DNA of 50,932 bases, from NCBI GenBank assembly GCA_027315345.1, contig DAHUYE010000054.1, positions 1 through 50,932 of the forward strand, read 5' to 3'. The stretch is from Actinomycetota bacterium (GTDB lineage: Bacteria; Actinomycetota; Acidimicrobiia; Acidimicrobiales; JAJPHE01). The notes below the pieces were generated by a model, which was not told the origin of the DNA, ran no database searches, and was given only the letters and a program-made list of their open reading frames with translations. Position numbers and translations under genes: made by a program. Every line of letters begins with the position of its first letter. The first letter of the stretch is position 1. Shown here one piece after another: positions 19,387-50,318 of this stretch.

Positions 19387-20427
19387 TCAGCTCGGATGAA
19401 GAAACGAGAGCTTGGCGGGAACAGCCCCGGAAGGAATCGCGATCGAGGTGCCGCGGGGCAACGGCTCGACCACCAACGTCTCCTGTCTGACCAGGAAGGG
19501 CAAGGTGCCCGTCTGAATGCTCAGGCGTTGAATGGCTGTTTGGGCGAATGCCTCTTGTCCCTCCCGAGAGAGGTTCTTGGGAAGGGATAGGTGGTAATTG
19601 TTCACCAACTGTTGCAGCTGATCGATGGGGTCCGTGGTTAGCCGTATCTCGACAACCATCCCGTTCTTCACGTAGATGGCGATTTTGGTGAAGTTGGATA
19701 TGGTTGGCGGAGCCGGAACGGCGCCGGGGCTGGCCGTCTGCACCACGGGCAGGGGTTGTTCGTATACGTCGTAGCGGGTGATCCCCGATCCCTTGAGCGG
19801 CGCTGGAAAGGGGTCGTCAGTAGGCTTGTAAACAGGAGTGACATCGTCGGCCCGGTATTGGCGGACCTCGGGGGGAGGGGCCAGGCTGATCAGATTGTTG
19901 ACGTCCGAGAGGAACAGCAGGGCCTGATCGAACGGGTCGTCCTTGTACTCCTGGACCTCCTGGCCGACGGTCGGAACACTGGGCGCCCCCGTCGTATCCA
20001 CCACCCAGTGATGCGCCAGGAGGGCGGCCCCGGCCAGTTGGGCGGAAGGGATAGTCACGTTTGCGCGCTGAGTCGACCAATAGCGCGCCACCGCAGCTGG
20101 ATCGAGAATCCGGTCGGCAACGGCATCGTCCTTGACTACCTCCTCCCACGCCGGCACGCCGTTAGCGACATAGAGAAGGTGGTAGCGGTAAGCGTCGGCA
20201 TACTGTCCGCTTACCGTCTGAGTAAGGCTCAGTTCCTGATCCGTCCAGACAAACTGCATGGACGTAGCCATGGTCCGGGTTATATCTGCATGCAACTCCG
20301 TCGCCAGCGTATCCGGGGATTGGCATGATGAGATGAAGACGGCAGCCAGGACGAGGGCAACGAACTGGTGGAGCCGGGACCGGCGCAGGGCATCGGACCA
20401 GGGGCCGAGAACGGTGAACATCCTCAC
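19387..20427 (-). CDS. Predicted lipoprotein of unknown function (346 residues)
   Basis: A signal peptide ends in a lipobox at C35 (ISSC), so it should be a membrane-attached extracytoplasmic protein. I recognise no family. The mature part has a segment around residues 45-110 rich in alternating hydrophobic and polar residues (SLTQTVSGQYADAYRYHLLY) that could be a LolA/LppX-like beta sheet, and later ISNFTKIAIYVKNGMVVEIRL, which also looks like strands. LppX/LprG-type lipid carriers have such folds, but this is only a suggestion. It follows the 168-residue lipoprotein with a 4-base overlap and precedes the S9 peptidase. Confidence 0.75.
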   Translation of the reverse strand: MRMFTVLGPWSDALRRSRLHQFVALVLAAVFISSCQSPDTLATELHADITRTMATSMQFVWTDQELSLTQTVSGQYADAYRYHLLYVANGVPAWEEVVKDDAVADRILDPAAVARYWSTQRANVTIPSAQLAGAALLAHHWVVDTTGAPSVPTVGQEVQEYKDDPFDQALLFLSDVNNLISLAPPPEVRQYRADDVTPVYKPTDDPFPAPLKGSGITRYDVYEQPLPVVQTASPGAVPAPPTISNFTKIAIYVKNGMVVEIRLTTDPIDQLQQLVNNYHLSLPKNLSREGQEAFAQTAIQRLSIQTGTLPFLVRQETLVVEPLPRGTSIAIPSGAVPAKLSFLHPS

Positions 20428-20930
20428 GATAGATGCACCCCGAGCGTCGCCTCCAAGAGAGCTCTGGGGGTCGAGTATTGCGACCGCGTCGTCAGAATGA
20501 ACAGAACTCGACCGTCAAACCAGGTCGACGTGGCCGAGCCGATGCCACTGGCGAGGTAGACAGAGTGACCGGACAATCTGACCTCGCTGGGAATGCCACC
20601 CGTGACCTGGTTGACAAGACTTAACCGGAACCCAGCCGTGTTAGGTGTAGATGGCACAAGCTCAATCACTTCCAGCGTCGCCTCCACCAGCTGCGACTGG
20701 CGAAGGCTGTAGAACCCCACGGCCCGGGCGTAGCTACCATCGGCGTGGGAAACGGCTGCTTTGTCGCTCTCCGGCTGGACGCGCAATCCGTTCAAGGTGG
20801 CTGGCAGCGCCGAGGCCGGGATGTCCCCGATGCGGACCGCGGCCGTCGTCTTGATGGGCACAGAGGTATGTCCGCACGAGGCGATCGCCAGACCCCCGAG
20901 TCCCACTAGGACCGCCCTGAAGCACTTCAA
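20424..20930 (-). CDS. Predicted lipoprotein of unknown function (168 residues)
   Basis: A short signal peptide ends in a lipobox at C19 (IASC). The mature domain of about 150 residues has no motif I know. It looks beta-rich (VRLSGHSVYLASG, TSTWFDGRVLFILTTRS) and contains no cysteines after the lipobox. It starts in a 4-base overlap with the cupredoxin-like gene and ends in a 4-base overlap with the next lipoprotein gene, so all three are made together and probably act together at the outer face of the membrane. Confidence 0.75.
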   Translation of the reverse strand: MKCFRAVLVGLGGLAIASCGHTSVPIKTTAAVRIGDIPASALPATLNGLRVQPESDKAAVSHADGSYARAVGFYSLRQSQLVEATLEVIELVPSTPNTAGFRLSLVNQVTGGIPSEVRLSGHSVYLASGIGSATSTWFDGRVLFILTTRSQYSTPRALLEATLGVHLS

Positions 20931-21466
20931 CGGGCAGCTACTTCCAAAGTTCCGGTCGCATAAGGCCGAGTCCCGTCGGCATAATCGTGCCGTCCCGCAG
21001 TGTTAGCCACCCAGGTCCAGCTTCCACCGGGTGGAATGGAGGGCGACGTGAAGGCGCCATCGGTGGCCACTACCGAATGCGGCTTCGAATCCGAGTTGAT
21101 CCACTCCACACTCGTTCCCTGGTAAACGGCGACGTCGGTGGGAGCAAAGGCTGGCTGACCGGAGGTGTCACCGTTGATGTGGATCACATAAACGCTGGCG
21201 ACAGTGGTAACAGTGCGCGCTGCCGTGGTGGGGGGTGATGTTGTAGTGACGGCTCGAGCTGGGGAGGTCGTGGTGGGAGGCGCTGAGGTTGGCGTGATGG
21301 CCGTAGTGCTGGTGGTCGAGCCCAGGCTCAAATTCCCCGCCCCACCGCTACCATGGAGGTTCACTCCCGATCCGACGGAGTTCGAACCTCCGCATGCGGC
21401 TAAGCCGATGGCCAGTAGGACCGTGGTCAGGACTTTGATAGCAGCTCTGCCCTTAGTTGTGATCAC
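20927..21466 (-). CDS. Cupredoxin-like lipoprotein with degenerate copper site
   Basis: This 179-residue protein has a lipobox at C25 (LAAC), a long Ser/Thr/Pro linker (about 48-88) and a plastocyanin/azurin-like domain (about 90-178). The domain has FAPTDVAVYQGTSVEW, the first copper-ligand position H130 (SKPHS) and the closing strand TGTLEV. In copper-binding relatives the last loop reads Y-x-C-x-x-H-P; here it reads Y162-A-D-G-T-R-P168, so the Cys is D164 and the His is R167. Type 1 copper binding and electron transfer are therefore unlikely. A ligand-binding or structural role beside the transporter is inferred. It overlaps both neighbours by 4 bases. Confidence 0.75.
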   Translation of the reverse strand: MITTKGRAAIKVLTTVLLAIGLAACGGSNSVGSGVNLHGSGGAGNLSLGSTTSTTAITPTSAPPTTTSPARAVTTTSPPTTAARTVTTVASVYVIHINGDTSGQPAFAPTDVAVYQGTSVEWINSDSKPHSVVATDGAFTSPSIPPGGSWTWVANTAGRHDYADGTRPYATGTLEVAAR

Positions 21467-24432
21467 ACGAGACTCCCAGAACGACGGGTGGCGGCGGTTG
21501 AAGTACCCAAATAGGCGGCCACGACGCGACTATCGGCCAGCACCACATCGGGTCGGTCCTGAAGCAGGATCCGTCCCTGATCCATAGCTATCAGTTGATC
21601 AGACACCGCTGATATCAGAGGCATGTCGTGCTCAATGATCATCATCGAACAGCCCGTGTCCCGGCGCACCTGCAGGAGAACCGGCCCCAGGGCTTCCGCT
21701 TCAGCCTGGGCGATTCCAGCCGACGGCTCGTCCAGTAACACGACATGGGGCTCAGCGGCCATCACGCAGCCGAGGTCAAGAATCCGCCGGAGGCCCGTCG
21801 ACAGCTCACCGACCAGCTTGTACTGATGACGGCCCAGGCCAAGGCTCTCCAGAAGCGTCGCGGCCCTCTGGCGAGCCCGAGTCTCGCTGCGCCGGGCGCT
21901 GGGCCACGACAGCCCATGCAGAACGGCGGATTTGACCGCCACCTGCTGCTCCAGCGCCACCAGCAACGTCTCCTCGACCGTCAGCGACGGATAGAGGCGG
22001 GCATCTTGGAACCGACGCAGCAGGCCGAGACGAGCCCGGGCATCGGCGGGCAGTTCGGTGACGTCCGTTCCCTCCAGCCAGACCTGACCGGAATCGGCTG
22101 AAACGAGACCGGACAGGAGGTCGAAGAGTGTTGTCTTCCCGGAACCGTTCGGACCGATAATACCCAGGACGGCTCCGTCTCGGAGCTCGAAGCTGACATC
22201 CTCCAGCGCTCGCACACCTCCGAATGCCTTAGCGATCCCCCGCGCCTCCAGGACCACACGAGCCTCAGCCATCGCCGCCGTCCGCCGGGCCTCCTCGGTT
22301 GCCACCAGAGCGCCGACGGCTGCTTTCGGCGCCGTCGCGGGCCTGCCCCGGCCCCCCGCTCCCTGGACGAACACCGAGCGTAGGACGTCCGGACGATTGA
22401 GCAAATCGGTAGACGGTCCCTCAAACTGAACTTCGCCCTTCTCCAGGAATACCGCGCGGTGAGCCAACTGAAGGGCCACGTTGATGGACTGTTCCACGAC
22501 GATGATGGTTACTCCCTGAGCGCGGATGGCCTCGATGGCCTCGATGAGCATCCCGACCACGGCCGGAGCCAGACCCAGTGAGAGCTCGTCGATCAGGAGC
22601 AGCTTGGGCCGTAGCACCATGGCCTGGGCCAGCGAAAGCATTTGCTGCTCACCTCCGGACAGGGTACCGGCGGCCACATCGACTCGATCTCTCAGCACAG
22701 GAAAGAGATCCAGCGAGCGATTCATTACCTCTAGGGCCTCGTCCGGAGGGAGCAGCCAAGTTGACAGCCTCAGATTGTCCCGAACTGACATGGCTGGAAA
22801 CACGCCTCGACCACCTGGCATGTGGACGACTCCTCGAGCGGCGATCTCGTGGGGTGGCATATGGGTTATGTCCCGGCCTTCGAAGACGATCGACCCGCCC
22901 GAGGCTTCCGTAATTCCACTGATCGCCCTCAGGAGAGTCGACTTGCCTGCCCCGTTCGTGCCCAGGAGTGCGACCACTTCCCCCTGCTCGACATCGAAGT
23001 CGAGGTTGAAGATCACCTGGTTGGACTCGTAGCCCACGTCGACACCCCGGCAGACGAGCATCTTGGCCCGCCCGGAGTCCCGAGCCTGTCGGTACTCCTC
23101 CGCCGCCACACCGCCAGCCATAATGGTCCGGCGGTCCAACTCGAAGAGAGAACCAGAGCTCGCGTAGAGGATGCCTCCGATTATCGCCGCGGCCGCCGCC
23201 GGCCAGAACGCGCCCGGATATCCGAACTTGAAGAACAGAACTGTGGAGAACCCGAAGCCAACCACGCTGGCCGGCACGTCGGATAGGCCCAGTACCTGCA
23301 GGCCCTGGGTGCGGTTGGCGGAAGGGATGACCTGAGTGGCAATGGCGTTGACCCCCGGGCCGGTCAAGCCGGAGCCGAACCCGAACACGAAGAGCAGCAC
23401 TCCGATAACCCAGAGGGGCGGGGAGAGGGCGTAGGCGGCCCAGGAGAGGGACGTAAGGGCCAGGAAGGCCCCATACACGTACATGACTCGGCCCGGCTCG
23501 CGGGCACTGAGCCGGTCGACCAGCCCGCCTCCGTAGAGGGAGCCGAGAACCGTGCCCAGCCCGGCGATAGAGAAGTAACCCCCCTCGGCCAGGATGCTGA
23601 TCCCGTAGTGATCGGGAAGGAACAACAGCAGGTACAGGCCGGCGGCGGGCGCCACCAGCCCTCCTGCCACTCGGGCCACAAAGATGCGGCGCAGGGTCCG
23701 CACCGCGAAAAAGGTTCTGAAGGCCTCACCGAAGGACTGCGGTGCATCCGGGATCTTGGCCGACTCGTCATCGGCACCGGCATACTTGCGATCAAAGTAG
23801 CCCCGGATCGGTTCCCGAAGCAGGGCTAGTACCAGGGCTCCAGAAAGGGAGATGGCGACCCCGTCGGCCAGGAACGAACGAAACAGCCCCACATACTTGA
23901 ACAGCGCCCCAGCAACCAGTGGGGCAAACACGATGCCGCCCGAGTCCAGGGCGTTGAGGGCGGCAAACGCGCGGCCCCGGTCCAGAACGGGGTAATAGTC
24001 CGCCACCAGGGAGTAGAGCGGCACCCCTCCGAATCCGGCCGAAGCCGTCTGCGCCCCCGCCCGAGGCGCACCCACGGTGGCCGAGGTGCGGCCACGCCCG
24101 GTGATCGACCCGATTGCGCCCCCGAGGATGGTTCCCCATCCGACCATGGGGACACGCCGCACCCGGTCTGCCGCCCAGCCCACCCCCAGGTTGGTGAAGA
24201 TGAGCAGAAGGCGGAGCCCGACCAGAACGGAGATGATGGATGACAGGTTGATGTTGCCTCGGCGGAGGAACTCCGGGCCGGCCAGGTTGAACATCCCCGC
24301 ATCGAACGAGCCGATGAGGATAAGGACGCCCAGCACGAGGACGGGCCGCACCCCATAGGGTGTGCTACGCAACTCACCCATCGCTCGAAGATCCTGAAGA
24401 AGGCGGACTCGGTACCGCCCCGCCTCACTCAC
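21463..24432 (-). CDS. MFS permease fused to LivF- and LivG-type ABC ATPases (copy 1)
   Basis: This 989-residue single frame joins three modules. Residues about 28-430 form a 12-helix major-facilitator-like domain (NLGVGWAADRVRRVPMVGWG is the loop 2-3 region). Residues about 455-700 form a LivF-type ATPase: Walker A GTNGAGKST near 490, signature LSGGEQQ, Walker B LLLIDELSLGLAP. Residues about 730-980 form a LivG-type ATPase: GPNGSGKTT near 760, unusual signature LSTGLRR, Walker B VVLLDEPSAG. LivF and LivG normally form a heterodimer under LivH/LivM, and the fused LivH-LivM gene lies directly upstream with a 4-base overlap. What an MFS domain adds is unknown. The frame is intact throughout, and a second copy exists at 42975-46016. 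Confidence 0.9.
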   Translation of the reverse strand: MSEAGRYRVRLLQDLRAMGELRSTPYGVRPVLVLGVLILIGSFDAGMFNLAGPEFLRRGNINLSSIISVLVGLRLLLIFTNLGVGWAADRVRRVPMVGWGTILGGAIGSITGRGRTSATVGAPRAGAQTASAGFGGVPLYSLVADYYPVLDRGRAFAALNALDSGGIVFAPLVAGALFKYVGLFRSFLADGVAISLSGALVLALLREPIRGYFDRKYAGADDESAKIPDAPQSFGEAFRTFFAVRTLRRIFVARVAGGLVAPAAGLYLLLFLPDHYGISILAEGGYFSIAGLGTVLGSLYGGGLVDRLSAREPGRVMYVYGAFLALTSLSWAAYALSPPLWVIGVLLFVFGFGSGLTGPGVNAIATQVIPSANRTQGLQVLGLSDVPASVVGFGFSTVLFFKFGYPGAFWPAAAAAIIGGILYASSGSLFELDRRTIMAGGVAAEEYRQARDSGRAKMLVCRGVDVGYESNQVIFNLDFDVEQGEVVALLGTNGAGKSTLLRAISGITEASGGSIVFEGRDITHMPPHEIAARGVVHMPGGRGVFPAMSVRDNLRLSTWLLPPDEALEVMNRSLDLFPVLRDRVDVAAGTLSGGEQQMLSLAQAMVLRPKLLLIDELSLGLAPAVVGMLIEAIEAIRAQGVTIIVVEQSINVALQLAHRAVFLEKGEVQFEGPSTDLLNRPDVLRSVFVQGAGGRGRPATAPKAAVGALVATEEARRTAAMAEARVVLEARGIAKAFGGVRALEDVSFELRDGAVLGIIGPNGSGKTTLFDLLSGLVSADSGQVWLEGTDVTELPADARARLGLLRRFQDARLYPSLTVEETLLVALEQQVAVKSAVLHGLSWPSARRSETRARQRAATLLESLGLGRHQYKLVGELSTGLRRILDLGCVMAAEPHVVLLDEPSAGIAQAEAEALGPVLLQVRRDTGCSMMIIEHDMPLISAVSDQLIAMDQGRILLQDRPDVVLADSRVVAAYLGTSTAATRRSGSLV

Positions 24433-26594
24433 GCTTGGCCTCCGCCGGGCAGGAGGCGCGAACGTAACCGGAATCGCTGGTCAGGAGGAACGGCTCCCAG
24501 GCCACCTGACGTGAACGGCTCGGAAAGGGGGATCCGGTCGGTGTGATCCTCCTCCAGGAGAGACTCGATTCCGGAACGTACGGCGACGATGTGCAGGAGA
24601 GAGTCCCGGACACTGGAAAGAGTCGACATCAGTCCACTGGGCAGGAGGTAGACCAGGGTCAGTGTGCCAACTCCGGATATGTACTGAAGGATGGGACTTC
24701 CGGTCAAGAAGTAAGTGAACAACTCGTACAGGCCGGCGCCGAGCAGTCCACCCGAGACCGAGGTGACACCACCGAAGAGGGTGTAGATCAGAATAGGAAA
24801 ACTGGCGTCGATAGAGAAGGCGCTCCCCGGGACCGCCCGCAACTGGAAGGCTTCCAAAGCGCCGGCCAGACCGGCGACTGTCCCGGAAAGAGCGAATCCA
24901 GCCAGCTTCAACCGGGTGGCATTGACCCCCACAGCCCTGACGTCGGCTTCATTGTCCCGGGTCGCCACCAGCAGTCTCCCGAAGCGGCTTCGCCGTAGGT
25001 TGACGACCACGGCAATGACTGCCGCCAGCACGATAAGGCAGAGGAAATACATGCTTCGTTCGTCATCGAAGTTCAGCAAGAAGAGGGTCGGACGAGGTAT
25101 TGACTCCGGAAGGAGCCAGCCGAACAGCTTCGGATCGAACAGCGCCTGAGCCGCCGCAGCCCCGAAGGCGAATGTGATGGCTGCCAGATAGAGACCCGGG
25201 ACGCGCAGGGCCGGGAAGCCGATAATGACTGCGAGGAGGCCCGACACCAGCGCCGCAATCGGCACGGAGAACCAGAAGGGGATGCCGGCGTGCACAGTCA
25301 GACCGCCGGACAGCACGGCGCCAATAGCTACGAAGGCGCCCTGGCCCAGGCTGACCTGGCCGGCCCATCCGGTCAGCACTACCAAGGAAAGCGCCACCAG
25401 TCCGAACACGGCGATGTCCGTGCCTATGGCGATCAGCCTGACATTTACCACGATCGGGTACAGAACGGCGGCGCCGAGGATTAACAGGGACAGCGCCCAC
25501 CGGGTGGTACGAACCACGGGCAGCCGAGCCAGAACGGGAGGCACCGGACGAGGCTCGCCTACCAGCCGCCAGGAGACAGTAGATCGCTCCACCCTCAAGT
25601 TGTCAGCCCTGAGGCTGGCCAGACCCACTACGGCTAGGACCAACAAGCCGATGGCCACGATGGTGGTGGAGTCATTGAAGGCATAACCGACCGCGTCGCT
25701 CAGGACGCCAATACCAAGAGCGAAAGCGATGGCGAGAGGCAGGCTGCGGAACCGAGCCAAGACAGCCGCCACCAGGGCAGGCAGGAGAGATAGGGGGGCA
25801 TAGGCATACGCGGCCTCGGGGCTGCCGGTTATCCCCTGGGACAGAGATGCCACCCCGCCGAGTACTCCGGCCACGGCCCAGACGACCGTGGCCACTCCAG
25901 CCACCGAAATTCCGAGTAGAGCGGCCCGCTCCGGGTTCGATGCCATGGCTCGAATGGCGGCTCCGAAACGGGTGAAGCGCAAGAATCCCCCAACCAGAAC
26001 CAGGGCGAGAAGGCAGAGCTCCAGCGCCGCCAACTGGGCAAACCCGAAGGTCACCGGCAGGCTCCCGACGTGATACCTCAGGCCGGAGTAGGGCAGGTAT
26101 GGGGCCAGGCTATTGATACCGAAGATCTGCGAAAGCGGCCTCTCCCCGGCGGGGGGGAGGAAGGGCAGGTTGAACAGAGCTGGTGTGAGCACACCGCTGA
26201 TGGTCGAGGCCACCACAATCGTAAACACCGTGGCCAGAAGACGGGGAGCGCGGCTGAAGCGCCGGAGCAGCAGATCGGTGCCTGCCCCCATGGCTCCGGA
26301 GAGAACGAGGGTCAGCATCAGGGATACCGCGAAAGGGATCGCTCGCTCGTAGCGGATGAGCTGGAAGGCAACCTGGGCTCCCACTCCTCCTATCGCCAGC
26401 TGGGCAAAGTTGATGATCCGGCTGGCTTGATAGACAAGCACGAGAGCCACTGCGGTTAGCGCCGTCCCGAGTCCGTCAATCAGGCCCGAGTAGAGGATGG
26501 CGGTTGGAGTGCCATGAGGCAGTGCAAACTGGGTCACCAGTAACACTGCTCCTAGCCCAGCCGGGATGGAGGCTAGGCGAAGGGCCCTCTTCAC
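24429..26594 (-). CDS. Fused LivH-LivM branched-chain amino acid-type ABC permease (copy 1)
   Basis: This 721-residue membrane protein carries both permease halves of a Liv-type (HAAT) importer. Residues about 1-330 are LivH-like (SGLIDGLGTALTAVALVLVY, then NFAQLAIGGVGA, the coupling region SRAPRLLATVFT). Residues about 350-670 are LivM-like (ALSLVVLTGWAGQVSLGQGAF, ALRVPGLYLAAITFA, then the AVGVNATRLKLAGFALSGTVAGLAG coupling segment). A polar tail of about 40 residues follows. The fusion has about twice the usual length and implies a fixed 1:1 ratio. The ATPases are in the next gene (4-base overlap); the likely binding protein is divergent at 32410. The substrate may be an amino acid, amide or other small solute. 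Confidence 0.9.
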   Translation of the reverse strand: MKRALRLASIPAGLGAVLLVTQFALPHGTPTAILYSGLIDGLGTALTAVALVLVYQASRIINFAQLAIGGVGAQVAFQLIRYERAIPFAVSLMLTLVLSGAMGAGTDLLLRRFSRAPRLLATVFTIVVASTISGVLTPALFNLPFLPPAGERPLSQIFGINSLAPYLPYSGLRYHVGSLPVTFGFAQLAALELCLLALVLVGGFLRFTRFGAAIRAMASNPERAALLGISVAGVATVVWAVAGVLGGVASLSQGITGSPEAAYAYAPLSLLPALVAAVLARFRSLPLAIAFALGIGVLSDAVGYAFNDSTTIVAIGLLVLAVVGLASLRADNLRVERSTVSWRLVGEPRPVPPVLARLPVVRTTRWALSLLILGAAVLYPIVVNVRLIAIGTDIAVFGLVALSLVVLTGWAGQVSLGQGAFVAIGAVLSGGLTVHAGIPFWFSVPIAALVSGLLAVIIGFPALRVPGLYLAAITFAFGAAAAQALFDPKLFGWLLPESIPRPTLFLLNFDDERSMYFLCLIVLAAVIAVVVNLRRSRFGRLLVATRDNEADVRAVGVNATRLKLAGFALSGTVAGLAGALEAFQLRAVPGSAFSIDASFPILIYTLFGGVTSVSGGLLGAGLYELFTYFLTGSPILQYISGVGTLTLVYLLPSGLMSTLSSVRDSLLHIVAVRSGIESLLEEDHTDRIPLSEPFTSGGLGAVPPDQRFRLRSRLLPGGGQA

Positions 26595-27655
26595 GGTCGT
26601 CCCGGAGGTAGAGGTCCAGGCTTGAGCTGGCCGATCTCATCGGTCTCGGTCTGACTCGAGCCGGTCGGGGTGGAAGCCGAGGAGATAATGATGCCTCCAT
26701 ACTGGGTGGCTACGGCGTAGTCGACTGTGCTGGTGTCAGTACTGCCGTTCTGGGAGAAGCTCTGGGTGGAGGTGACGGACCAGCCGTCCACCAGCTGGCC
26801 GCACGCGTTCACCCGGGTGGTCTGGCCCGAGGCGGTGGCCTGGTTGGTGAAGCTAGCCCCGTTGCTCGGATCGACTCCTGCGGCATTGAAGGACTGCGGA
26901 CTGGCCACATCGAGAGGAAACAGGAGTACAGGCGTGGAAGGGTGGAACGAGGCTGTCATCGCCCCAGAACCGTTCCGATCCACAACCGAAACCAAGGACA
27001 AGCCCCGGTCGGGGCTACCAACATGCTGGGTCTGGCCCACGTTACCGGCACTGCCGGAGACTTCAGGGGCGTTCTGCTTCACCTCATAGGTGGTGGTGAC
27101 GGTTCCTCCCTCACTACCAGGGGTGATGACGTCGTAGTCGAATACCGTGGTAGCCGAATCGCCTGGAACCGGATTAGGCGTCGTAGTGGTTTTGGTCACG
27201 TTGTCAATCACGTAGGTGACGTAGTGATAGGTCTTGAGAGTGAAGTTCGTCCCCGAGACGGGCTGGGAATCAATGATCTGCCATTTGTAGCTCCCCTGGG
27301 TCGGCGGTTGGGCGACGCTGAGCGCCACCGATCGGTCGGGCGACGCTCCATAAGGCGGTTCGGGGCACTGTCCCTGGTCGGCGGTGGAAGTGACGGAGGT
27401 CGACCCGTAGGCAGGAGAACTGAAGTTGTAGGTGGTCGTAGTGGCAAAGTCGAAGGCAGGTACCTGACCGGGCAACGTGAGGTTGGCCGGTGCGACACTC
27501 TGCGGAGCGGCCGCCCCAAGAGGACTGGAGGTGGTGGTGGTCGAAACGCCAAACTCGATATTGGAACTGATCCGGCGTACGGCCACGCCAGGAGCCCCAG
27601 TTCCACACCCGGCCAGAGCTAAAGCAGAGACGACTACCACCAGCCGCTGGTTCAT
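26591..27655 (-). CDS. Predicted lipoprotein of unknown function (354 residues)
   Basis: The signal peptide ends in a lipobox at C17 (LAGC). The mature protein is rich in Thr, Ser and Val, with alternating-residue strands (TTTYNFSSPAYGSTSVTS, TVTTTYEVKQ, STDTSTVDYAVATQYGG), so an all-beta extracytoplasmic fold is likely. No family is recognised. Two free cysteines occur in the mature part. It sits between the TgpA-like gene and the LivH-LivM fusion with 4-base overlaps on both sides. That position suggests an accessory subunit of the transporter or a partner of the pseudo-transglutaminase. Confidence 0.75.
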   Translation of the reverse strand: MNQRLVVVVSALALAGCGTGAPGVAVRRISSNIEFGVSTTTTSSPLGAAAPQSVAPANLTLPGQVPAFDFATTTTYNFSSPAYGSTSVTSTADQGQCPEPPYGASPDRSVALSVAQPPTQGSYKWQIIDSQPVSGTNFTLKTYHYVTYVIDNVTKTTTTPNPVPGDSATTVFDYDVITPGSEGGTVTTTYEVKQNAPEVSGSAGNVGQTQHVGSPDRGLSLVSVVDRNGSGAMTASFHPSTPVLLFPLDVASPQSFNAAGVDPSNGASFTNQATASGQTTRVNACGQLVDGWSVTSTQSFSQNGSTDTSTVDYAVATQYGGIIISSASTPTGSSQTETDEIGQLKPGPLPPGRP

Positions 27656-29910
27656 GGACGTGACTCCGCCAACTTTGCCAGAAGGTCAGGGGCCCAAGGT
27701 TGTCTCTCAGAGCGTCGCGATAGAGCCGCCAACAGTCGGGTGCTAATGGGCTGTGCTCCCGACAACCGCCTTCGCAGGGCACGGGACAGTTCCTCGGCCA
27801 CCGCAGCAGTGTCCTCGGTAACTTCCCCGCGCATATCTCCCCATACGACTCTGGTTACCAACCAGGCCAGCTCGCTGTGCTCTTCGTCAGGCACTACCAG
27901 CTCAAGGTAGGCGAGGGGTGTCTCGGACGGGTAGGAGTGGCCGTAGTCCGTGGCCAGATCACGCCACTCGGCGTAGGCCAGAGCCACTCGCGCCGCCGGT
28001 CCCGCCGCTGCCGCGGCCCGCCGTCGGCGCCCGCGAGCCCGCGCCTTCCGGAATCCGGGCCAGAGGAACCAGATCAGCAGCGCCATCAGAAAGGCACCGA
28101 GTGCCAAACCGGCACCGGCCGCGATCTGCTCAGGCAGCCGACTGGGGGGCGCCGTCGCGAACGGCATATACAGGTTCGCTCCGAAGGTATTGGCGGCCTG
28201 AGCGCTGCTCGGCTGTTGGAGACTGGAGCGTGATTCGGTGGCCTTGGCATGCACCGGCGTGCCGATGACAGGGAGCCACTCGAAGCCGGAAAAGTAGACC
28301 TCAACGAAGGAGGCCGCATCCGCAGGGGTGACCTGGCGAGTCCCGTTCACCTGGCGACCCCCGTCAAACCCATAGCCGATGCGGCTGGGCACGCCGACCC
28401 AACGGGCGAGCATGGCTTGAGCAGCCACAATCTCGAAGGGTGAGCCCTGTCGAGACCCGCTGATCATGTCCACCACCTCCGACGGCGGGACAGCTGTGGG
28501 GACTCCCTGACCGGCTACGGTCACATGCTGAAGGATCCACTGTCGTAAGGCATCAAAGGTCTGCCAGCGACTTGCGCCTCGCAACTCATTGATCAGCGAT
28601 CGGACGGCCGGGGGTGCGGGCGGGATACTGAGGAACTGTTTGATACCGGCGGGGAGAGGCCGGGTGTCTGACTCCAGCTGGGTCACCTTGGGCAAGGGGG
28701 CCGCCGCCACCGTATAGGTGAAGCCCTTGTTGACTTCGCCTTGGATGAGCCGGATATTTCCACTGCGGGAGTCGTAAGCCAGCTCGGGGCCGGAGGCAAC
28801 GATCCCCACGGTGTCGGGCAGAGTTGGCAGCACAGCGCCGGAGAGTCCCTGGACAATGAAGGTGGCTGTCTCTCCGGTCGGTCGGGAGGTGTCCACCACG
28901 CCGTTCTTGGGAACGGCTCGGATCTTCGCCTCAGCGTAGGGGGGCAGCCGCCAATATCGACCGTCGTATACATCCAGGCTGCCGATCCGCCACGGCCCAG
29001 AGACTGATGAGCGAACATCGAACAGGACCCGGTTCACGGCTGTGGTCAGTGGCTCCGTCTTGGGAAGCTGAGCCTGCTCCACCGGATTGATGGTCGGTGC
29101 CGGAAACAGGATGTGGGTACGCGACAGACCGACCAACGCCCCACTGATCACAGCCAGGAGGACCAGAGATCGGACCGCTCTCCTGAGCTCGAAGCCGGCC
29201 GACGGGCGGTCATCCGGGCCATCCCCGGAGGGTGCAAACAACAAGCCCAGCCCAGCGCAGAACAAGACCACGACCACGATTCCGCTCGCGACCTGAGCGT
29301 CCTTGGGCACGGAGATGCCCGCGATGGCCGCCAGGGGCAGCGGCACCAGCAGGCCGAGCGGCGGACGGTCAAGCACCAGAGCGGTCCACACGGCCACCAG
29401 ACCGGTAGTCGCCAGCAACCAGCCAACGATGGCGTGCCATCCCGGGAGAAAGTCGACAGGCGGCCGCAACAGACTGCCCTCGTGACTGGCCAGAGCCACC
29501 GCCTGCCGGAGGTGGATCAAGTTGTGGAAGCCGGACGGGAGGATGGCCAGGAGGCCGGCGGCGAAGACTCCGATGAGCACCACTGCCAACGTGGACCCCG
29601 CCCTCCGGAGACGGGAGGCTCCCCAACCCACCCCAACGCCGAAGGCGGCGAAGACGCATGCGTAGATGCGACCCCCTGCGCCTTGGAAGATCCCGCCTAC
29701 CATGACGGCGGCGCCCAGACTAGAAAGCAGGCAGGCCAATGCCGCTCGACCGGGCCTCAGACCTGACCCACCGTCGTCTTCGACGGGATCGTCGGCCGGC
29801 CGGCTCGGCAGCGATCCGGAACCGGTTACGCCCTCGGGGCTTCCTCCATCCGGGGTTGGAGTGTCCTCCGGGACCTTCTCGACCTCTGAAGACGCGTCGG
29901 TGATGCTCAA
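27652..29910 (-). CDS. TgpA-like membrane protein with transglutaminase fold lacking the catalytic triad
   Basis: This 752-residue protein has an N-terminal block of about six helices (50-265), an extracytoplasmic region with a transglutaminase-like domain (about 440-560), one more helix (near 595-620) and a cytoplasmic DUF4129-like tail (WRDLATDYGHSY, LAWLVTRVVWGD). In active relatives the domain reads G-Y-C-E near the start, H-A-W on the next strand and D-P-T-P after it. Here these are GSPF (near 488), A-S-F before VEVYF (near 537), and IGTP, so Cys, His and Asp are all missing. Binding or scaffolding is more likely than catalysis. It follows DUF58 with a 4-base overlap, as in MoxR-DUF58-TgpA sets elsewhere. 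Confidence 0.82.
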   Translation of the reverse strand: MSITDASSEVEKVPEDTPTPDGGSPEGVTGSGSLPSRPADDPVEDDGGSGLRPGRAALACLLSSLGAAVMVGGIFQGAGGRIYACVFAAFGVGVGWGASRLRRAGSTLAVVLIGVFAAGLLAILPSGFHNLIHLRQAVALASHEGSLLRPPVDFLPGWHAIVGWLLATTGLVAVWTALVLDRPPLGLLVPLPLAAIAGISVPKDAQVASGIVVVVLFCAGLGLLFAPSGDGPDDRPSAGFELRRAVRSLVLLAVISGALVGLSRTHILFPAPTINPVEQAQLPKTEPLTTAVNRVLFDVRSSVSGPWRIGSLDVYDGRYWRLPPYAEAKIRAVPKNGVVDTSRPTGETATFIVQGLSGAVLPTLPDTVGIVASGPELAYDSRSGNIRLIQGEVNKGFTYTVAAAPLPKVTQLESDTRPLPAGIKQFLSIPPAPPAVRSLINELRGASRWQTFDALRQWILQHVTVAGQGVPTAVPPSEVVDMISGSRQGSPFEIVAAQAMLARWVGVPSRIGYGFDGGRQVNGTRQVTPADAASFVEVYFSGFEWLPVIGTPVHAKATESRSSLQQPSSAQAANTFGANLYMPFATAPPSRLPEQIAAGAGLALGAFLMALLIWFLWPGFRKARARGRRRRAAAAAGPAARVALAYAEWRDLATDYGHSYPSETPLAYLELVVPDEEHSELAWLVTRVVWGDMRGEVTEDTAAVAEELSRALRRRLSGAQPISTRLLAALSRRSERQPWAPDLLAKLAESRP

Positions 29911-31205
29911 AGCCTGTTCCCAGCCCCGATGTCATGGGCCATGGCTGTGGCCAGGTCGTCCCCTGGCCGTATGCCTGTTACTTGGCAACCGAGGGCGGCG
30001 GCGGTGGCGAGGACATTGGACGAGTCCTCGTGCCACAGGAGAGCCACCACCAAAACCGAGACCCCCGTGTCCAGCAGAAGGCGCAGCCGGGCGGCCTCGT
30101 TGGGACCCAGGTGCGGCGTGACCAGGATGTTGTGGGCGTCACGCTGGCCGTTGGCCAGCACCCGCATGAGGAGTTTGGCCAAGGGCTCCCGGTCAGGTTC
30201 CACCCGGGCCAGCGCATCAAGGAGCAGGGTCTGGGTACCTTGCCCGCGGAGGGTCCGGGTCAGAGGTCCTGCATTGCACTCTGTGCGAACTTCGTAGCCC
30301 TCCCGCAGGTGGCGGACTCCGAGCGAAGCGATCGTTCTGACACCCATCTCAAAGCTGTCCGAATGCTCACCCTCCCACGAGTGATTGCTTCGGTCCGTAT
30401 CCAGCATCAGGGTGATCCGATCGGTTATCCCCTGCTCCGCCTCCCGGACCATTACCCTTCCCACCCGTGCCGATGCCCGCCAGACGACCCGGCGGAGATC
30501 ATCACCCGGCACGTATTCGCGCATCCCGTAGAACTCAAGGCCCGAGGGCCACGGCTTGGAGACGGGCGGCCGGATCGGAGGATCCTCGAATTGCCTGGTC
30601 AACGGACGATCCGATACCAGGTCTACCCGGGGGTGGACCAGAAGTTCGAAGGGTTGGGCCACGAGCGTTTCCCGCTGGGCCAGGCCCAGAGGATCGCTGG
30701 CCACCGCCACCAGAGGACCCACCTGGTACACGCCGCGACGGGAGCAGCGCAGTCCGTATCGGTGGGTGACGTCTGTGCCCGAAGAGAGCTTCTCCACCGG
30801 GACCCGAACCGGCTGTCCCAGCCTCTCGGGGACCCGCTCTTCGAGGACGAACGTGGCCACCCGACGGCGGGCTGAGAGCCTTACCTCCACATCCAGTCGG
30901 TCCCCCTCCCTGGCCCGAGGGAATAGACCGGATCGATCACCTTGGAGCGGAAGCTTGCGAGGCGCCAGCAACAGGGCGGCTACGACCGTCAGGAACGCCC
31001 CGTAGGCGAACAGGTAGACGGCCGTTCCGGCCACGATCCTGGCCAGGATCCACATCCCGATGGCCGCAACCAGAGCAGCCGCTCCCGTGGCCGTCAGGCC
31101 GGATCGCCTCGAGGCGGCCAGAACAGCAGAACGAAGAGCGCCTCGCGACACCGCGTCCCGGACTGAGTCCAGACGCGCCAGGATGTGGCGGCCCAGGCGG
31201 CGCAT
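29907..31205 (-). CDS. DUF58 domain membrane protein
   Basis: This 432-residue protein has two N-terminal helices (about 35-80) followed by a long soluble part. The defining DUF58 block is GLEFYGMREYVPGDDLRRVVW near residue 225, followed by VMVREAE and LMLDTD, the start of a von Willebrand A-like region. DUF58 proteins almost always accompany MoxR ATPases and are thought to be their membrane-bound partners in protein maturation. Here the MoxR gene ends 6 bases upstream and the TgpA-like gene overlaps by 4 bases. The exact client is not known; candidates are the transporter and lipoproteins encoded downstream. Confidence 0.88.
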   Translation of the reverse strand: MRRLGRHILARLDSVRDAVSRGALRSAVLAASRRSGLTATGAAALVAAIGMWILARIVAGTAVYLFAYGAFLTVVAALLLAPRKLPLQGDRSGLFPRAREGDRLDVEVRLSARRRVATFVLEERVPERLGQPVRVPVEKLSSGTDVTHRYGLRCSRRGVYQVGPLVAVASDPLGLAQRETLVAQPFELLVHPRVDLVSDRPLTRQFEDPPIRPPVSKPWPSGLEFYGMREYVPGDDLRRVVWRASARVGRVMVREAEQGITDRITLMLDTDRSNHSWEGEHSDSFEMGVRTIASLGVRHLREGYEVRTECNAGPLTRTLRGQGTQTLLLDALARVEPDREPLAKLLMRVLANGQRDAHNILVTPHLGPNEAARLRLLLDTGVSVLVVALLWHEDSSNVLATAAALGCQVTGIRPGDDLATAMAHDIGAGNRL

Positions 31206-31211
31206 CGGCCT

Positions 31212-32258
31212 CTAGCGCCGGGCCGTGACAGGTGCTTTGACCGTGTTCACGACCCGCTCGAGCACGGCCGAGGTGCTCTCCCCCCGCAGGAGCGCGTCCG
31301 GATGAAGAACCACCCGGTGGGCGAGCACCGGTCCCACCACGGAACGAACGTCATCGGGATATACCTGAGATCTTCCGTCGGAGGCGGCCACCACCCTGCT
31401 CGCCTTGAGCAGGGCGATACAGGCCCGGGGCGAACCTCCCATGACAATGGAGGGATCGGTCCGGGTGGCCTGAACCAGGTCCACGATGTAAAGACCCACC
31501 TCATCGCTCAACTCGATGGAGGTAGCCGCCCAGCGGATCATCCGCTGAACTGACTCGGTGTCGATCACCGGCCCCAGGTCATCAATCGCCAGCGATAGGG
31601 AGTTATCGAGCATGACCTCCAACTCGTGCTGGCGGGACAGATAACCCATGGAGAGTTTGAACAGAAACCGGTCCAGCTGGGCCTCGGGGAGAGGAAAGGT
31701 CCCGGCCGTCTCGACCGGATTCTGGGTGGCAAGTACCAGGAATGGCCGGGGTAGCGAGTGGGTCACCCCATCCGATGAGACCTGACGCTCGGCCATGGCC
31801 TCCAGGAGGGCGGACTGGGTCTTGGGCGTGGCCCGGTTCACCTCGTCGGCCAGGAGCACGTTGGCGAAGACGGGGCCTGGCCTGAACTCCAGGGTGCCCG
31901 TTCGCTGGTCGAGCATGGCCGACCCGGTGATGTCCCCGGGGAGCATGTCCGGGGTGCATTGGACCCGCTGCGATATGGCCTGCATGGATTGGGCCAGGGC
32001 ACGAGCCAGCATCGACTTGCCCGTCCCGGGCAGATCCTCGAAGAGGACATGGCCCTCACACAGAACGGCAGTCAGAGCCAACCGGACTATCTCGGTCTTT
32101 CCCTTGATGACCTTCTCGACGTTGTCCACGACCCCGTCGAAGGCGGCCTGGAACTTGGCTGCGTCGATGTCGCCTGTCCCGGGTTTGGAGCTGGTGCCCC
32201 GTGACGCCGGGCGCGTCGGGGTCCGGGTCCGGCCGGGTGAAGGGGTGGCTCTTGGCAT
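31212..32258 (-). CDS. moxR: MoxR-family AAA+ ATPase
   Basis: This 348-residue cytosolic ATPase is the first gene of the ten-gene operon. It has Walker A GLPGTGKSM near 79, Walker B LLADEVNRATPKTQSALLEA near 136, an ATQNPVE sensor region, and the C-terminal helical lid with DPRACIALLKASR-like spacing (SPRACIALLKASRVVA). The N-terminal 30 residues are Pro/Thr/Arg-rich and probably disordered. MoxR ATPases act as chaperones that remodel or mature membrane or periplasmic-facing complexes together with DUF58 and VWA proteins. The start has GGAG at good spacing. The substrate is inferred to be a product of the same operon. Confidence 0.92.
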   Translation of the reverse strand: MPRATPSPGRTRTPTRPASRGTSSKPGTGDIDAAKFQAAFDGVVDNVEKVIKGKTEIVRLALTAVLCEGHVLFEDLPGTGKSMLARALAQSMQAISQRVQCTPDMLPGDITGSAMLDQRTGTLEFRPGPVFANVLLADEVNRATPKTQSALLEAMAERQVSSDGVTHSLPRPFLVLATQNPVETAGTFPLPEAQLDRFLFKLSMGYLSRQHELEVMLDNSLSLAIDDLGPVIDTESVQRMIRWAATSIELSDEVGLYIVDLVQATRTDPSIVMGGSPRACIALLKASRVVAASDGRSQVYPDDVRSVVGPVLAHRVVLHPDALLRGESTSAVLERVVNTVKAPVTARR

Positions 32259-32409: not shown

Positions 32410-34260
32410 ATGGAGGTCACCGCTGCCAGACTTTCCCAACGCCGGACGGGAGGATCCTCCCTCCGCCGTTTCGGGCCACTGGTAGGGCTCCTCCCAGTTG
32501 TTCTCATTGCCGTCCTGGTACTGCCCTCCTCGCTCAGCCTGCCGCAAGCCAACCCCGACACCACCCCCGAGCTAGCCCCGATACCTCCGAGTAGCCACGC
32601 AGAGCTCAACGCCCCTTCTAACTTTTCCTCCCTCTCCTTGGCAGGGTCTTCCACCTTGGGAGCCGGGAGCGGAACCGCTCCCGGGGCAGGAACAGCCGGC
32701 GGCCTCCCCCCACTTCCGACCTTGGGCGTTCCCTCCGGCCAGGGCGGCAGCCCCCCGGAGCTGTACCAGTGTGTCGGAGGCCGGCAGACCTTCGACACCC
32801 TGTCACCGCCCTGCTCGGCCTATCAGTACCAGGGCAGCAATGGCGGCTCGACCTACCAGGGGGTGAGCGGCGGACTGGTCAAGATCCTCATCTACTACGA
32901 CGGTAATCCCACTCTCAATACCCCACGAGGGGAGGATGCCCCCGATCCGAACACCATCATCAACATGGATGACCCGCCCAAGCAGAACGAGATCGGCCAG
33001 ACTTTCGTGAACCGGGCCTGGGAGCATTACTTCGACCTGCACTACCAGACCTACAACCGCCACGTTCAGTTTTGGGTCCAGTATGGCTCGGAGTCCAGCC
33101 AGGGTACGGCCGACGCCAGCACCAGAGAGGCCGATGCCGCCTTCGGTTACCAGACCGTTCATCCTTTCGCCGTCATCGACTATGGGGATCTGGGTGGGTT
33201 CCAGGATGTCTACAACAACTACATGGTCAGTCACGGGGTCCTTCTGTTCGGCTCCGCTTTCGGCCGTACGAGCGCCTTCTACGACAAGTACCCCGGGCTG
33301 CAATGGGGATACGATCCAACCACGGAGGAAGACGCCCAGTACTACGCCAAGCTGGTCTGCACCAAATTGAACGGTCTGCCCACCGATGACGCCGGAGGGT
33401 CCCTCAATGGCCATCCGCGAAAGTTCGGGTTTATCGAGGACGGAGACCCTTCTGCCACCAACTACGCGGCTGAAGACAGTTTGGTCCTACAGGACCTTAA
33501 GTCGGAGTGCGGGCTAGTCCCTTCCGTGACCGTCAGCTTCCCTCACGATGGCTACGCCGTGGACACCCAGACCGTTCCAAGTTATGCGGTCGAGAATATG
33601 ACCAAGTTCGATCAAGCCGGGGTAACCACCGTGCTCTGGCCGGCGGGCTATGAGGTGAAACAGACCCAGGAGGCCGATCAACTCAATTACGTGCCCGAGT
33701 GGATCCTTGGCGATGATCCGGTTCAGTTCTCCAGCTTCGGTGCGGACTTCCAAGACACCAAGGAATGGGCTCACGCCTGGATCGAGTCCAGCGTTACCTA
33801 CACCCCGGCGGCTCACCAGGAAATCTGTTACCTGGCTTACCGTTCCGTGGACGAATCGGCTGCCGACGCTGACGTTTCTGACATAGCCTGCGCGGAGTAC
33901 AACGACCTGCGGCAGCTCTTTGACGGCATTCAGGTGGCCGGACCCAAGCTGACTCCTCACTCCATCGATGAGGGATTCCATGCCATCCCAGCCGTACCCA
34001 GCACTAATCCTCAGGTTCCGGCCTGCTTCTATAACGCGGGCGACTACACCTGCGTCAAGGACGCAGTGTTGGAGTGGTGGGACGGATCCGGAACGGACCC
34101 AAACAACAGCCAACCTGGCTGTTGGCGCATGATTGAGAATGGAACGCGGTTCCTCAACAACTTCCCGACGGGAAACTTGACGGCTCAGCAGGCGGCGTCA
34201 GACGTCTGCAATGGATACGACACCACTGTCGGCCTCGACTACAACCCCCCCTCGCCATGA
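32410..34260 (+). CDS. Membrane-anchored Liv-type substrate-binding protein (copy 1)
   Basis: This 616-residue protein has a basic N terminus and one hydrophobic helix (about 22-44) without lipobox. A Ser/Gly/Pro/Thr-rich linker runs to about 120, and then comes a type 1 periplasmic-binding-protein fold. Landmarks are VSGGLVKILIYYDG, FVNRAWEHYFDL, the domain-crossing segment FGFIEDGDPSATN and VLWPAGYEV. Several paired cysteines suggest disulfides. Such proteins capture solutes and deliver them to Liv-type permeases; the matching fused permease and ATPases are in the divergent operon. The ligand is not predictable. It overlaps the next gene by 4 bases. It is longer than ordinary LivJ-type proteins (about 370-400 residues) because of the linker and insertions. 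Confidence 0.83.
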   Translation: MEVTAARLSQRRTGGSSLRRFGPLVGLLPVVLIAVLVLPSSLSLPQANPDTTPELAPIPPSSHAELNAPSNFSSLSLAGSSTLGAGSGTAPGAGTAGGLPPLPTLGVPSGQGGSPPELYQCVGGRQTFDTLSPPCSAYQYQGSNGGSTYQGVSGGLVKILIYYDGNPTLNTPRGEDAPDPNTIINMDDPPKQNEIGQTFVNRAWEHYFDLHYQTYNRHVQFWVQYGSESSQGTADASTREADAAFGYQTVHPFAVIDYGDLGGFQDVYNNYMVSHGVLLFGSAFGRTSAFYDKYPGLQWGYDPTTEEDAQYYAKLVCTKLNGLPTDDAGGSLNGHPRKFGFIEDGDPSATNYAAEDSLVLQDLKSECGLVPSVTVSFPHDGYAVDTQTVPSYAVENMTKFDQAGVTTVLWPAGYEVKQTQEADQLNYVPEWILGDDPVQFSSFGADFQDTKEWAHAWIESSVTYTPAAHQEICYLAYRSVDESAADADVSDIACAEYNDLRQLFDGIQVAGPKLTPHSIDEGFHAIPAVPSTNPQVPACFYNAGDYTCVKDAVLEWWDGSGTDPNNSQPGCWRMIENGTRFLNNFPTGNLTAQQAASDVCNGYDTTVGLDYNPPSP

Positions 34261-35355: not shown

Positions 35356-36819
35356 ATGGGGGAACTAAGTTTAGGCAAACGGCTTCGGGCATCAAGGCTT
35401 GGCCCGGCGGCTGCCCTGGTCGCCCAGCTGCCGGGAGCCAGTCCCGCCCTGACGGGCCTCTGGGTCGCAGCCCTGCTGATCAGCATGCTGGTGCCGCTCG
35501 GCTTCGCCCTGGCCAGCGGGGCCCTGGTGGGAAGCGTTCCCCCCGCCTTGCGTTCGGGCATGGACTCCGCCGCCGGTCACCGTCTCCTGTGGGCGCTGGG
35601 CGCCACCGCCCTGCTCTTCGCCCTCCTCCAGTCCACCTCCCCGCTGCTCGGGGCCCTGGGCGAGGTTCTGGGCCGCCGGCTCAACGGCTCACTGCGCCGG
35701 CGGGTCATGGCGGCCGCCCTCACCCCGGCCGGGATCGGTCATCTCGAGGACCCGGCACTGCTCGACCTGGTGTCCCAGGCTCAGGGCGTCGGCACCGGCC
35801 AGTTCACCCCCGGACAGGCCACCACCGCCCTGACCGGGATGCTCAGCAACCGCCTGGGCGGAGCGCTGGCGGGCTGCCTGCTCTTCACCTACCGGTGGTG
35901 GCTGGCCGTATTAGTCATCGGAGCCGACCTGGCCATCGTCCGGATCCAGAGCTGGGAGCTCAAGCGGAGTCTGGCCGGGCTCACCGATGAAGCCGAGACC
36001 TTCCGCCGAGCCGGATACATCCGGGATCTCGCCCTGACCCCGGAGGCGGCCAAGGAGAGCCGGATCTTCGGCCTGGATGCCTGGCTGGTGAAGCGATTCG
36101 GAGAGGAGTGGACCTCTGCCATGACGGCGGTGTGGCAGGCCCGCCAGCGCGGCCGCTGGGCCGTCTTCGCCTCCATAGGCGCCGCTGGCCTGGTCGAGGG
36201 CGTCGCCTACTGGTTGGTCGGTGACGCCGCCGTGCGCCACCAAATCACCCTCGGCCACCTGACCGTCCTGATCGGCGCCGTCCAGGGCGCCTCGGGCATT
36301 CTGGCCATCAACTCCAACTGGCTACAGATCAACTACGGAGCCTCCGCCGTTCCCCGGGCCCTGGAACTCGAGAAGCGGGCCGCCGCCATCACGACCTCCG
36401 GCCGGTTACCGGCCTCGGGCCTGCCCGCCCGCTCGGTCCGATTCGAGCAGGTCCGGTTCGCCTATCCGGGCTCGGCTCACGAGGTCTACACCGGCCTCGA
36501 CCTGGAGATCGAAGCCGGCACTTCCCTGGCCATCGTGGGCCAGAACGGCGCCGGAAAGACCAGGCTAATGAAGTTGCTGGCCCGGCTCTACGACCCCACC
36601 GGCGGCACCATCACCGTGGACGGCATCCCCCTGACCGAGATCGACCCTGGCCAGTGGCAGCGGCGCATAGCCGCCATCTTCCAGGACTTCGTCCGCTTCG
36701 ACCTCGAGGCCGGGGACAACATCGTCTTCTCGGACAGTCCCGGACAACGAGACGCGCAGCTCCTCGACCACGCCGCTGGCCGGGCCGGTGCGGCCGAGTT
36801 GGTGGCTGGCCTGCCCTGA
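35356..36819 (+). CDS. ABC exporter truncated within its ATPase domain
   Basis: This 487-residue protein begins like a fused ABC exporter, with a six-helix transmembrane domain (about 30-320) and then an ATPase domain with SVRFEQVRFAYPG (A-loop region), Walker A GQNGAGKT near 394 and a Q-loop in AAIFQDFVRF. The frame stops right after ELVAGLP, just before the point where family members have the LSGGQ signature, Walker B and H-loop. About 110 residues are missing. ATP hydrolysis is not expected, so it is probably a decaying gene. The next gene begins within 70 bases and no missing part is seen in other frames. A sequencing or assembly artefact would have to be a deletion. Confidence 0.8.
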   Translation: MGELSLGKRLRASRLGPAAALVAQLPGASPALTGLWVAALLISMLVPLGFALASGALVGSVPPALRSGMDSAAGHRLLWALGATALLFALLQSTSPLLGALGEVLGRRLNGSLRRRVMAAALTPAGIGHLEDPALLDLVSQAQGVGTGQFTPGQATTALTGMLSNRLGGALAGCLLFTYRWWLAVLVIGADLAIVRIQSWELKRSLAGLTDEAETFRRAGYIRDLALTPEAAKESRIFGLDAWLVKRFGEEWTSAMTAVWQARQRGRWAVFASIGAAGLVEGVAYWLVGDAAVRHQITLGHLTVLIGAVQGASGILAINSNWLQINYGASAVPRALELEKRAAAITTSGRLPASGLPARSVRFEQVRFAYPGSAHEVYTGLDLEIEAGTSLAIVGQNGAGKTRLMKLLARLYDPTGGTITVDGIPLTEIDPGQWQRRIAAIFQDFVRFDLEAGDNIVFSDSPGQRDAQLLDHAAGRAGAAELVAGLP

Positions 36820-36885
36820 GTGAATTTCTGGCGTCGCCACCCTGGCGGCTGCCCGCAGGCCGGGCCGGTGAGCCAGGATGGCACC

Positions 36886-42531: not shown

Positions 42532-42978
42532 TCAGCCCCGGGGTCCGCTCCGGGAGCGAACCGCCCGGCTGGAGAGCGAGCGGATCCTCCCGCCCAGGAC
42601 TCCGAATCCCTCGGAGTACAGGACCAGGGCGATCAGCAGGGCGGCCAGCCCGAAGATCCGGGCCCAGGGGCTGTGGTGGGCGACCGGGACGGCGGAGGCG
42701 GTGACGGGCGCAGAAGGGGCCGAGCTGATCACCGTCGTCGTGGTCGTGGCCGGAGACGATGTGGTGGTGGTCGTGGCCCGGGGGGCCGCCGTGGTGGCCG
42801 TGGCGGAAGGGTACGAAGCGGCCGCCGCCGGCCGGGGGGGAAGTGCCATCACCCCGGCTGTCGCCCCGAAACTCACCGCGGCCGTCACGGCCAGAACGGC
42901 CGCTCGGGGTCGACCCTGGACTCGGCGTCCGATCCATGGCCCGAGGCGTCTCATCGGCCGTTCACGGCGGCCGGTCAT
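42532..42978 (-). CDS. Small secreted protein with C-terminal membrane helix
   Basis: This 148-residue protein has an N-terminal signal sequence (about 27-50, AVLAVTAAVSFGATAGVMAL), a low-complexity Ala/Ser/Thr stretch (about 52-95) and a C-terminal helix (ARIFGLAALLIALVLYSEGFGVL), then an Arg/Ser-rich tail. No domain is recognised. It overlaps the MFS-ABC fusion gene by 4 bases (ATGA) and is the last gene of the second transporter operon. Its signal/linker/helix/basic-tail layout resembles the larger protein at 34257-35321 beside the first transporter, which hints at an equivalent accessory subunit. Confidence 0.7.
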   Translation of the reverse strand: MTGRRERPMRRLGPWIGRRVQGRPRAAVLAVTAAVSFGATAGVMALPPRPAAAASYPSATATTAAPRATTTTTSSPATTTTTVISSAPSAPVTASAVPVAHHSPWARIFGLAALLIALVLYSEGFGVLGGRIRSLSSRAVRSRSGPRG

Positions 42979-48250: not shown

Positions 48251-48278
48251 GGCCGGCCCCCAGCCGATCGGCGCCGCC

Positions 48279-50135: not shown

Positions 50136-50318
50136 GAAAAACACTCCCCCTTCAGAAGCCGGGCCCCGGACCGGGCTTACCGGTCCGGTCCTGGCCAGGA
50201 CGTCATGTGACCTTCGACACGCCCGGGCCCCGGTCCTGCCTGGGGCCCGCACTTCATTCACCTTCACCACGCCCGGCCCGGGAGCCCGGCCACCCCACTG
50301 CTGGATAACGTCCTCCCG

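Follow-up and report, generated by a model that had tools for sequence, protein, structure and literature searches.

Spinster-like MFS domains fused to LivF and LivG ATPases recur beside Liv-type permeases in Acidimicrobiia

RESULTS

Gene content of the locus

The window, that is, the whole stretch of DNA analyzed here (50,932 nucleotides, contig DAHUYE010000054.1 of an Actinomycetota bacterium), carries two systems in which an MFS domain is joined to LivF and LivG ATPases in a single polypeptide (Table 1). The fusion gene under study belongs to a nine-gene minus-strand chain (19387 to 32258) with 4-base overlaps at most junctions, in the order MoxR, DUF58, TgpA-like, lipoprotein-like, LivHM, fusion, cupredoxin-like lipoprotein, and two lipoprotein-like genes. 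Parts of this chain lie beside the fusion at loci L028, L036, L131, L132, L133, L135, L136, L137, and L138, from several actinobacterial classes. Among them, homologues of the 354-residue lipoprotein-like protein were found at L036, L131, L132, L137, and L138, and those of the cupredoxin-like lipoprotein at L036, L132, L133, L135, and L138.

TABLE 1 Features of the window and LivH-LivM-LivF-LivG chains at other loci
Feature	Coordinates	Strand	Remarks
Lipoprotein-like protein	19387..20427	-	Same operon as the fusion
Small lipoprotein-like protein	20424..20930	-	Same operon
Cupredoxin-like lipoprotein	20927..21466	-	Downstream of the fusion, 4-base overlap; weak Cupredoxin_1 match below cutoff
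MFS-LivF-LivG fusion gene	21463..24432	-	989 aa, GTG start
LivG ATPase domain	21502..22263	-	Residues ~724-977; fold match, motifs
LivF ATPase domain	22357..23091	-	Residues ~448-692; fold match, motifs
Spinster-like 12-helix MFS domain	23104..24360	-	Residues ~25-443; Pfam, profile, fold match
LivH-LivM single-chain permease	24429..26594	-	721 aa; BPD_transp_2, two stretches; 4-base overlap with the fusion gene
Lipoprotein-like protein	26591..27655	-	354 aa, no Pfam match; same operon, 4-base overlaps
TgpA-like membrane protein with transglutaminase-like domain	27652..29910	-	No catalytic triad
DUF58 protein	29907..31205	-	Same operon
MoxR AAA ATPase	31212..32258	-	Operon head
Membrane-anchored LivK-fold binding protein	32410..34260	+	~600 aa; divergent from the fusion operon; profile E 9.7e-123
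ABC exporter-like protein	35356..36819	+	ATPase domain ends after 78 of 137 profile positions
Phosphoesterase (PF04185)	36820..38589	+	Tat-exported; phospholipase C/acid phosphatase family
Second MFS-LivF-LivG fusion	42975..46016	-	Paralogue, 38% identical
LivH-LivM permease of second system	46013..48370	-	
Frame with binding protein of second system	48279..50918	-	E 1.4e-92 to the binding-protein profile
LivH-LivM-LivF-LivG chains	L033:4374-8207; L034:7465-11709; L164:4642-8607; L165:5413-9363		~1280-1410 aa, no MFS domain

Several neighbors deserve mention in their own right. The Cys-His-Asp triad of the transglutaminase-like domain is absent from the TgpA-like protein of the window and from 8/8 homologues examined, with triad-less homologues at L028, L036, L131, L133, L135, L136, and L137; judged by these residues, the protein is a conserved pseudo-enzyme whose operon also encodes MoxR and DUF58. 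The ABC exporter-like protein is, from the early end of its predicted ATPase domain, truncated or broken. The phosphoesterase encoded near the binding-protein gene is a possible hint of a phosphorylated or lipid substrate. In the second system, the real start of the binding protein is probably near 50100.

Architecture of the fusion protein

The initial annotation had described one intact frame of 989 residues at positions 21463 to 24432 without giving its strand. The coordinates are right and the strand is minus: the frame runs uninterrupted across the whole interval, and the plus strand read over the same positions contains 13 stops. A GGCGGAGG ribosome-binding site precedes the GTG start, which shares a 4-base overlap with the stop of the LivH-LivM gene upstream.

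Pfam recognized MFS_1 (E value of 1.8e-26) and two ABC_tran stretches (whole-protein E value of 1.3e-59) in the product. The LivF domain (residues 448 to 692) matched the fold of the Thermotoga ABC ATPase 1ji0 (Z score of 31.4, 39% identity), and the LivG domain (residues 724 to 977) that of MJ1267 (1g6h; Z score of 27.8, 33% identity). Both domains have complete motifs for ATP binding and hydrolysis, namely, Walker A at residues 491 and 760, the ABC signatures LSGG at 591 and LSTG at 877, and Walker B at 611 and 897. The H-loop position reads IEHD in the LivG domain and VEQS in the LivF domain, a Gln at this place being usual in LivF. The AlphaFold2 model (mean pLDDT of 80.9) predicts 12 helices in the membrane domain followed by two ATPase domains, both complete, with one continuous helix (residues 385 to 452, pLDDT of ~80 to 90) joining TM12 to LivF. 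OppD/DppD-type double ATPase chains were the top Foldseek matches.

Thus, the assignment of the polypeptide as MFS, LivF, and LivG modules with a LivH-LivM partner proved right by Pfam, fold matches, and motifs, and a domain search of the N-terminal part returned MFS, in agreement with its fold match to SPNS2 (see below). No NCBIfam model above its cutoff names the MFS domain, and a defense-system library gave only generic ATPase matches. As for annotation in general, domain searches label such a gene either MFS transporter or Liv ATPase, depending on the higher-scoring domain.

Permease and binding protein partners

In nearly every locus with a complete flank, LivH-LivM lies directly upstream of the fusion, and the occurrence of this LivH/LivM-type permease (BPD_transp_2) together with LivF and LivG ATPases is that of a Liv/HAAT importer. 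Beside 74 fusion loci, on the same strand, there is also a gene of ~600 codons for a binding protein, whose profile finds one member for each of the two systems of the window. Pfam mostly misses this family (Peripla_BP_6 in 5 of 25 members), and a PDB sequence search with the binding protein gave no match. Its model (pLDDT of only 58.6) matches LivK, LIVBP, and related folds, so that the profile, the few Pfam hits, and this low-confidence model together point to a type I periplasmic fold. By sequence, the N terminus is a membrane helix and has no lipoprotein signal. Given that LivHM and a binding protein are both present, the systems are complete importers in which the MFS carrier does not replace a missing part.

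Recurrence and distribution

The genome of the window encodes seven MFS-LivF-LivG proteins, two of them within the window, together with LivF-LivG and LivH-LivM-LivF-LivG proteins that have no MFS domain. A survey of taxa, as the initial annotation had proposed, found the fusion to be recurrent: the MFS family occurs in 31 of 100 sampled genomes of the class and is fused to the ATPases in ~28 of them (counting rows with a frame of at least 700 aa), and the fusion also occurs in a few genomes from other classes of actinobacteria. It is present in single-contig genomes as well, which makes it clonable and testable. One of these is the complete genome CP011489.1 of the cultured relative IMCC26256, where the gene lies near position 1,413,000. 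A pattern scan of 84,980 species, with a pattern built from the main subfamily and as the sole coverage of other phyla, gave >80 further fusion loci, with record titles that nearly always read Acidimicrobiia or unclassified Actinomycetota; “Candidatus Microthrix” was among them. A few MAGs with an acidimicrobial cassette are titled Bifidobacterium breve or Acidobacteria (L080, L095, L100, L112, L118, and L079), titles that are probably mislabels. In plasmid records there was no fusion, and only the ATPase part was matched. Frames of 1,382 to 1,913 aa that seemed to include the permease were rejected as overlapping high-GC frames, with LivHM in another frame. The fusion is not a one-off but forms a family that recurs together with a binding protein of its own.

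The subfamily of the window copy (10 members, support of 99) spans several actinobacterial classes. In a sister form, an MFS-LivF chain accompanies a separate LivH-LivM-LivG chain; MFS-LivF is the most widespread pairing, found also where LivG belongs to the permease chain. The LivH-LivM-LivF-LivG single chains (Table 1) unite in one polypeptide every membrane and ATPase component of a Liv importer. The existence of such relatives indicates that the MFS domain is not essential to the ABC part, and the tree shows several independent losses of it.

Spinster likeness of the MFS domain

The profile of the MFS family matched HnSpns first (6e8j; E value of 7.6e-41), followed by SPNS1 (6e-23) and DgoT (4e-21). 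The best fold match of residues 25 to 443 was human SPNS2 (8ex5; Z score of 42.8 over 392 residues, root mean square deviation of 2.5 Å), in a table that re-ranks only Foldseek's best chains, so that the absence of HnSpns from it says nothing against HnSpns.

The initial annotation had suggested checking whether the charged residues needed for proton coupling are kept, and the answer is divided. Window residues were mapped through the profile alignment onto the HnSpns positions described previously (PMC9440201). The TM1 Asp (HnSpns D41) is kept as D44 (Asp in 102 of 112 family sequences) and the TM4 Arg (R122) as R124 (Arg in 99 of 112). The motif A charge relay (D87, R91, and D142) is likewise kept as D89, R93, and D145, the motif A residues proper being D89, R90, and R93. 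Across the 112 sequences, R93 and D433 are invariant and D89, D145, P208, R210, and R374 near-invariant. On the other hand, the TM4 Glu that acts as the main proton switch of HnSpns (E129) (PMC9440201) is absent: the window protein has Ser131, 78 of 112 family sequences have Lys or Arg, and only close sisters of the window copy have Asp or Glu at this position. HnSpns R42 corresponds to A45, and neither residue of the periplasmic salt bridge D60-R289 is conserved in the family alignment. With the Glu replaced and the bridge not conserved, Spinster-type proton coupling cannot be assumed. Since E129, R42, and the D60-R289 pair are missing, the domain is, from its sequence, labeled Spinster-like and not filed as a Spinster member.

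Free-standing kin of the fused carrier exist in the Acidimicrobiia as unfused MFS proteins of ~500 aa. None of these Spinster-like carriers of the class adjoins liv genes, and their neighborhoods gave no substrate clue.

Selective constraint and covariation

Among 22 close pairs of relatives, dN/dS was 0.118 for MFS, 0.110 for LivF, and 0.131 for LivG, values that reach the window copy, itself with no close pair, by descent only, as do the other family-level tests. The MFS domain is thus constrained like the ATPases, which makes a mere anchor unlikely. In the window copy, it is the most divergent part, with a mean identity to the family of 24%, versus 56% for LivF. Distances between MFS domains correlate with those between LivF domains (r = 0.83; maximum after shuffling, 0.28), indicating that the MFS domain was inherited together with the ATPases.

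When the subunits of 76 systems were compared by rank partial correlations that controlled for the four remaining subunits, a distance-based and not tree-aware measure, the strongest of the 15 pairs was the MFS domain with the binding protein (0.67; shuffled maximum, 0.22). This pair ranked first in 480 of 500 half-samples and reached 0.61 in the main clade. LivF-LivG (0.53) and LivH-LivM (0.46) had lower values; together with LivG-LivM, these known contacts rank next and serve as a positive control. Although the MFS domain and the binding protein belong to separate genes and LivF and LivG lie between them, they form the most strongly associated pair. Shuffles within groups of close LivF sequences reached the observed value at cuts of 0.20 and 0.25 and did not at 0.30 and 0.35, so that the signal lies between subfamilies and not among near relatives. 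This pattern suggests that the MFS domain and the binding protein may adapt to the same ligand.

DISCUSSION

A probable Liv-type importer with a carrier-like domain

Sequence and predicted structure show a complete, Spinster-like MFS domain and complete LivF and LivG domains, with LivH-LivM encoded in an adjoining, translationally coupled gene and the gene for a LivK-fold binding protein close by; the same comparisons and models indicate an old and recurrent arrangement in which carrier and ATPases alike are subject to purifying selection. On balance, and with moderate confidence, we favor a Liv-type (HAAT) ABC importer whose ATPase chain has an N-terminal Spinster-like domain acting as carrier or sensor of the same substrate. 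The binding protein would hand its ligand to LivHM, and LivF-LivG would power LivHM, as they do in Liv importers of the ordinary kind. The MFS domain, tied to LivF by the continuous helix, would recognize the same ligand and either move it, or its product, by a second, gradient-driven path or report its presence to the ATPases. Of the roles proposed initially for this domain, the second path and the helper or sensor both remain compatible with the data, while an anchor alone is disfavored by the dN/dS values of relatives and by the kept motif A and TM1 Asp/TM4 Arg. The likeliest role appears to be that of a substrate-specific working domain, a carrier probably more so than a pure sensor. In a bolder version, which we consider rather unlikely, one binding protein would serve both the ATP-driven Liv permease and the gradient-driven Spinster-like carrier, and uptake would switch its energy source. 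If true, this would be, to our knowledge, the first case of an MFS carrier linked to a binding protein of the periplasmic type.

Alternative explanations

It is possible, albeit rather unlikely, that the domain has lost transport and senses a ligand or the membrane, gating the ATPases through the rigid TM12-LivF helix, by analogy with accessory regulatory domains of other ABC importers and MFS-type receptors such as UhpC. The confident prediction of that helix and the loss of the Glu switch would suit such a sensor, which constraint and ligand covariation fit equally well. However, the protein retains motif A and the TM1 Asp/TM4 Arg pair, both of which take part in alternating access, and the unfused relatives of the class resemble ordinary carriers.

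We regard as improbable an MFS pump driven by ATP, whether importing or exporting, in which the ATPases would energize the carrier itself in the manner of ArsA-ArsB. We know of no coupling site for ABC ATPases in MFS folds, and LivH-LivM, the natural partner of LivF/LivG, is found in nearly every system with a complete flank. The case for a pump comes from the covalent linkage, from the wide spread of the MFS-LivF pairing even with LivG on the permease chain, and from the precedent of ArsB, which runs on proton motive force or, with ArsA, on ATP (PMC2963123).

That the MFS domain does no more than anchor the protein in the membrane, or is a passenger in decay, seems similarly improbable. Its repeated loss on the tree and its strong divergence in the window copy would fit such a fate; however, its dN/dS is as low as that of the ATPases, its invariant and near-invariant residues persist across the family, and LivF/LivG dock on LivHM anyway, so that no anchor is required.

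Lastly, an assembly join, which the initial annotation had named as a refuting outcome, or read-through of separate genes can be dismissed with near certainty: nothing was found in its favor, and recurrence at seven loci of the genome, across the class in many genomes, and in single-contig genomes excludes chance and misassembly.

Comparison with known systems

MFS carriers and ABC transporters are assigned to separate classes, each with its own energy source, and the early remark that their combination falls outside the standard transporter classes holds. No description of MFS-ABC fusions was found in the literature that could be searched, weak evidence of absence given that subscription journals were mostly outside its coverage; this is a real transporter layout, undescribed in the searchable literature. 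A stable covalent union of the two under selection offers a natural setting for studying whether a single machine can draw on both energy sources or how a carrier fold can control ABC ATPases. ABC and MFS transporters serving one pathway are known from the cholate transporters CamABCD and CamM.

Compared with Liv/HAAT importers (LivKHMGF, TC 3.A.1.4), the systems described here have in common LivH and LivM, LivF and LivG with all motifs, and a LivK-fold binding protein. They differ in that LivH and LivM are fused together, LivF and LivG are fused together and to an MFS carrier, and the binding protein, ~600 aa long, has an N-terminal helix as its anchor and mostly escapes Pfam. OppD/DppD-type chains also have two importer ATPase domains, but they have no carrier domain and serve peptide permeases. 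As for Spinster proteins (HnSpns, SPNS1, and SPNS2), they are the closest solved sequences and the best fold match of the MFS domain and share with it the TM1 Asp, the TM4 Arg, motif A, the TM4-5 Asp, and the EPxRG motif, whereas here the TM4 Glu is replaced by Lys/Arg (Ser in the window), the D60-R289 pair is missing, and the domain is fused to ABC ATPases. The ArsA-ArsB system differs in that ArsA does not belong to the ABC ATPases or ArsB to the MFS, and it has no ABC permease or binding protein in addition. What it shares with the fusion is a carrier and an ATPase acting as one transporter, with ArsB able to use either energy source (PMC2963123).
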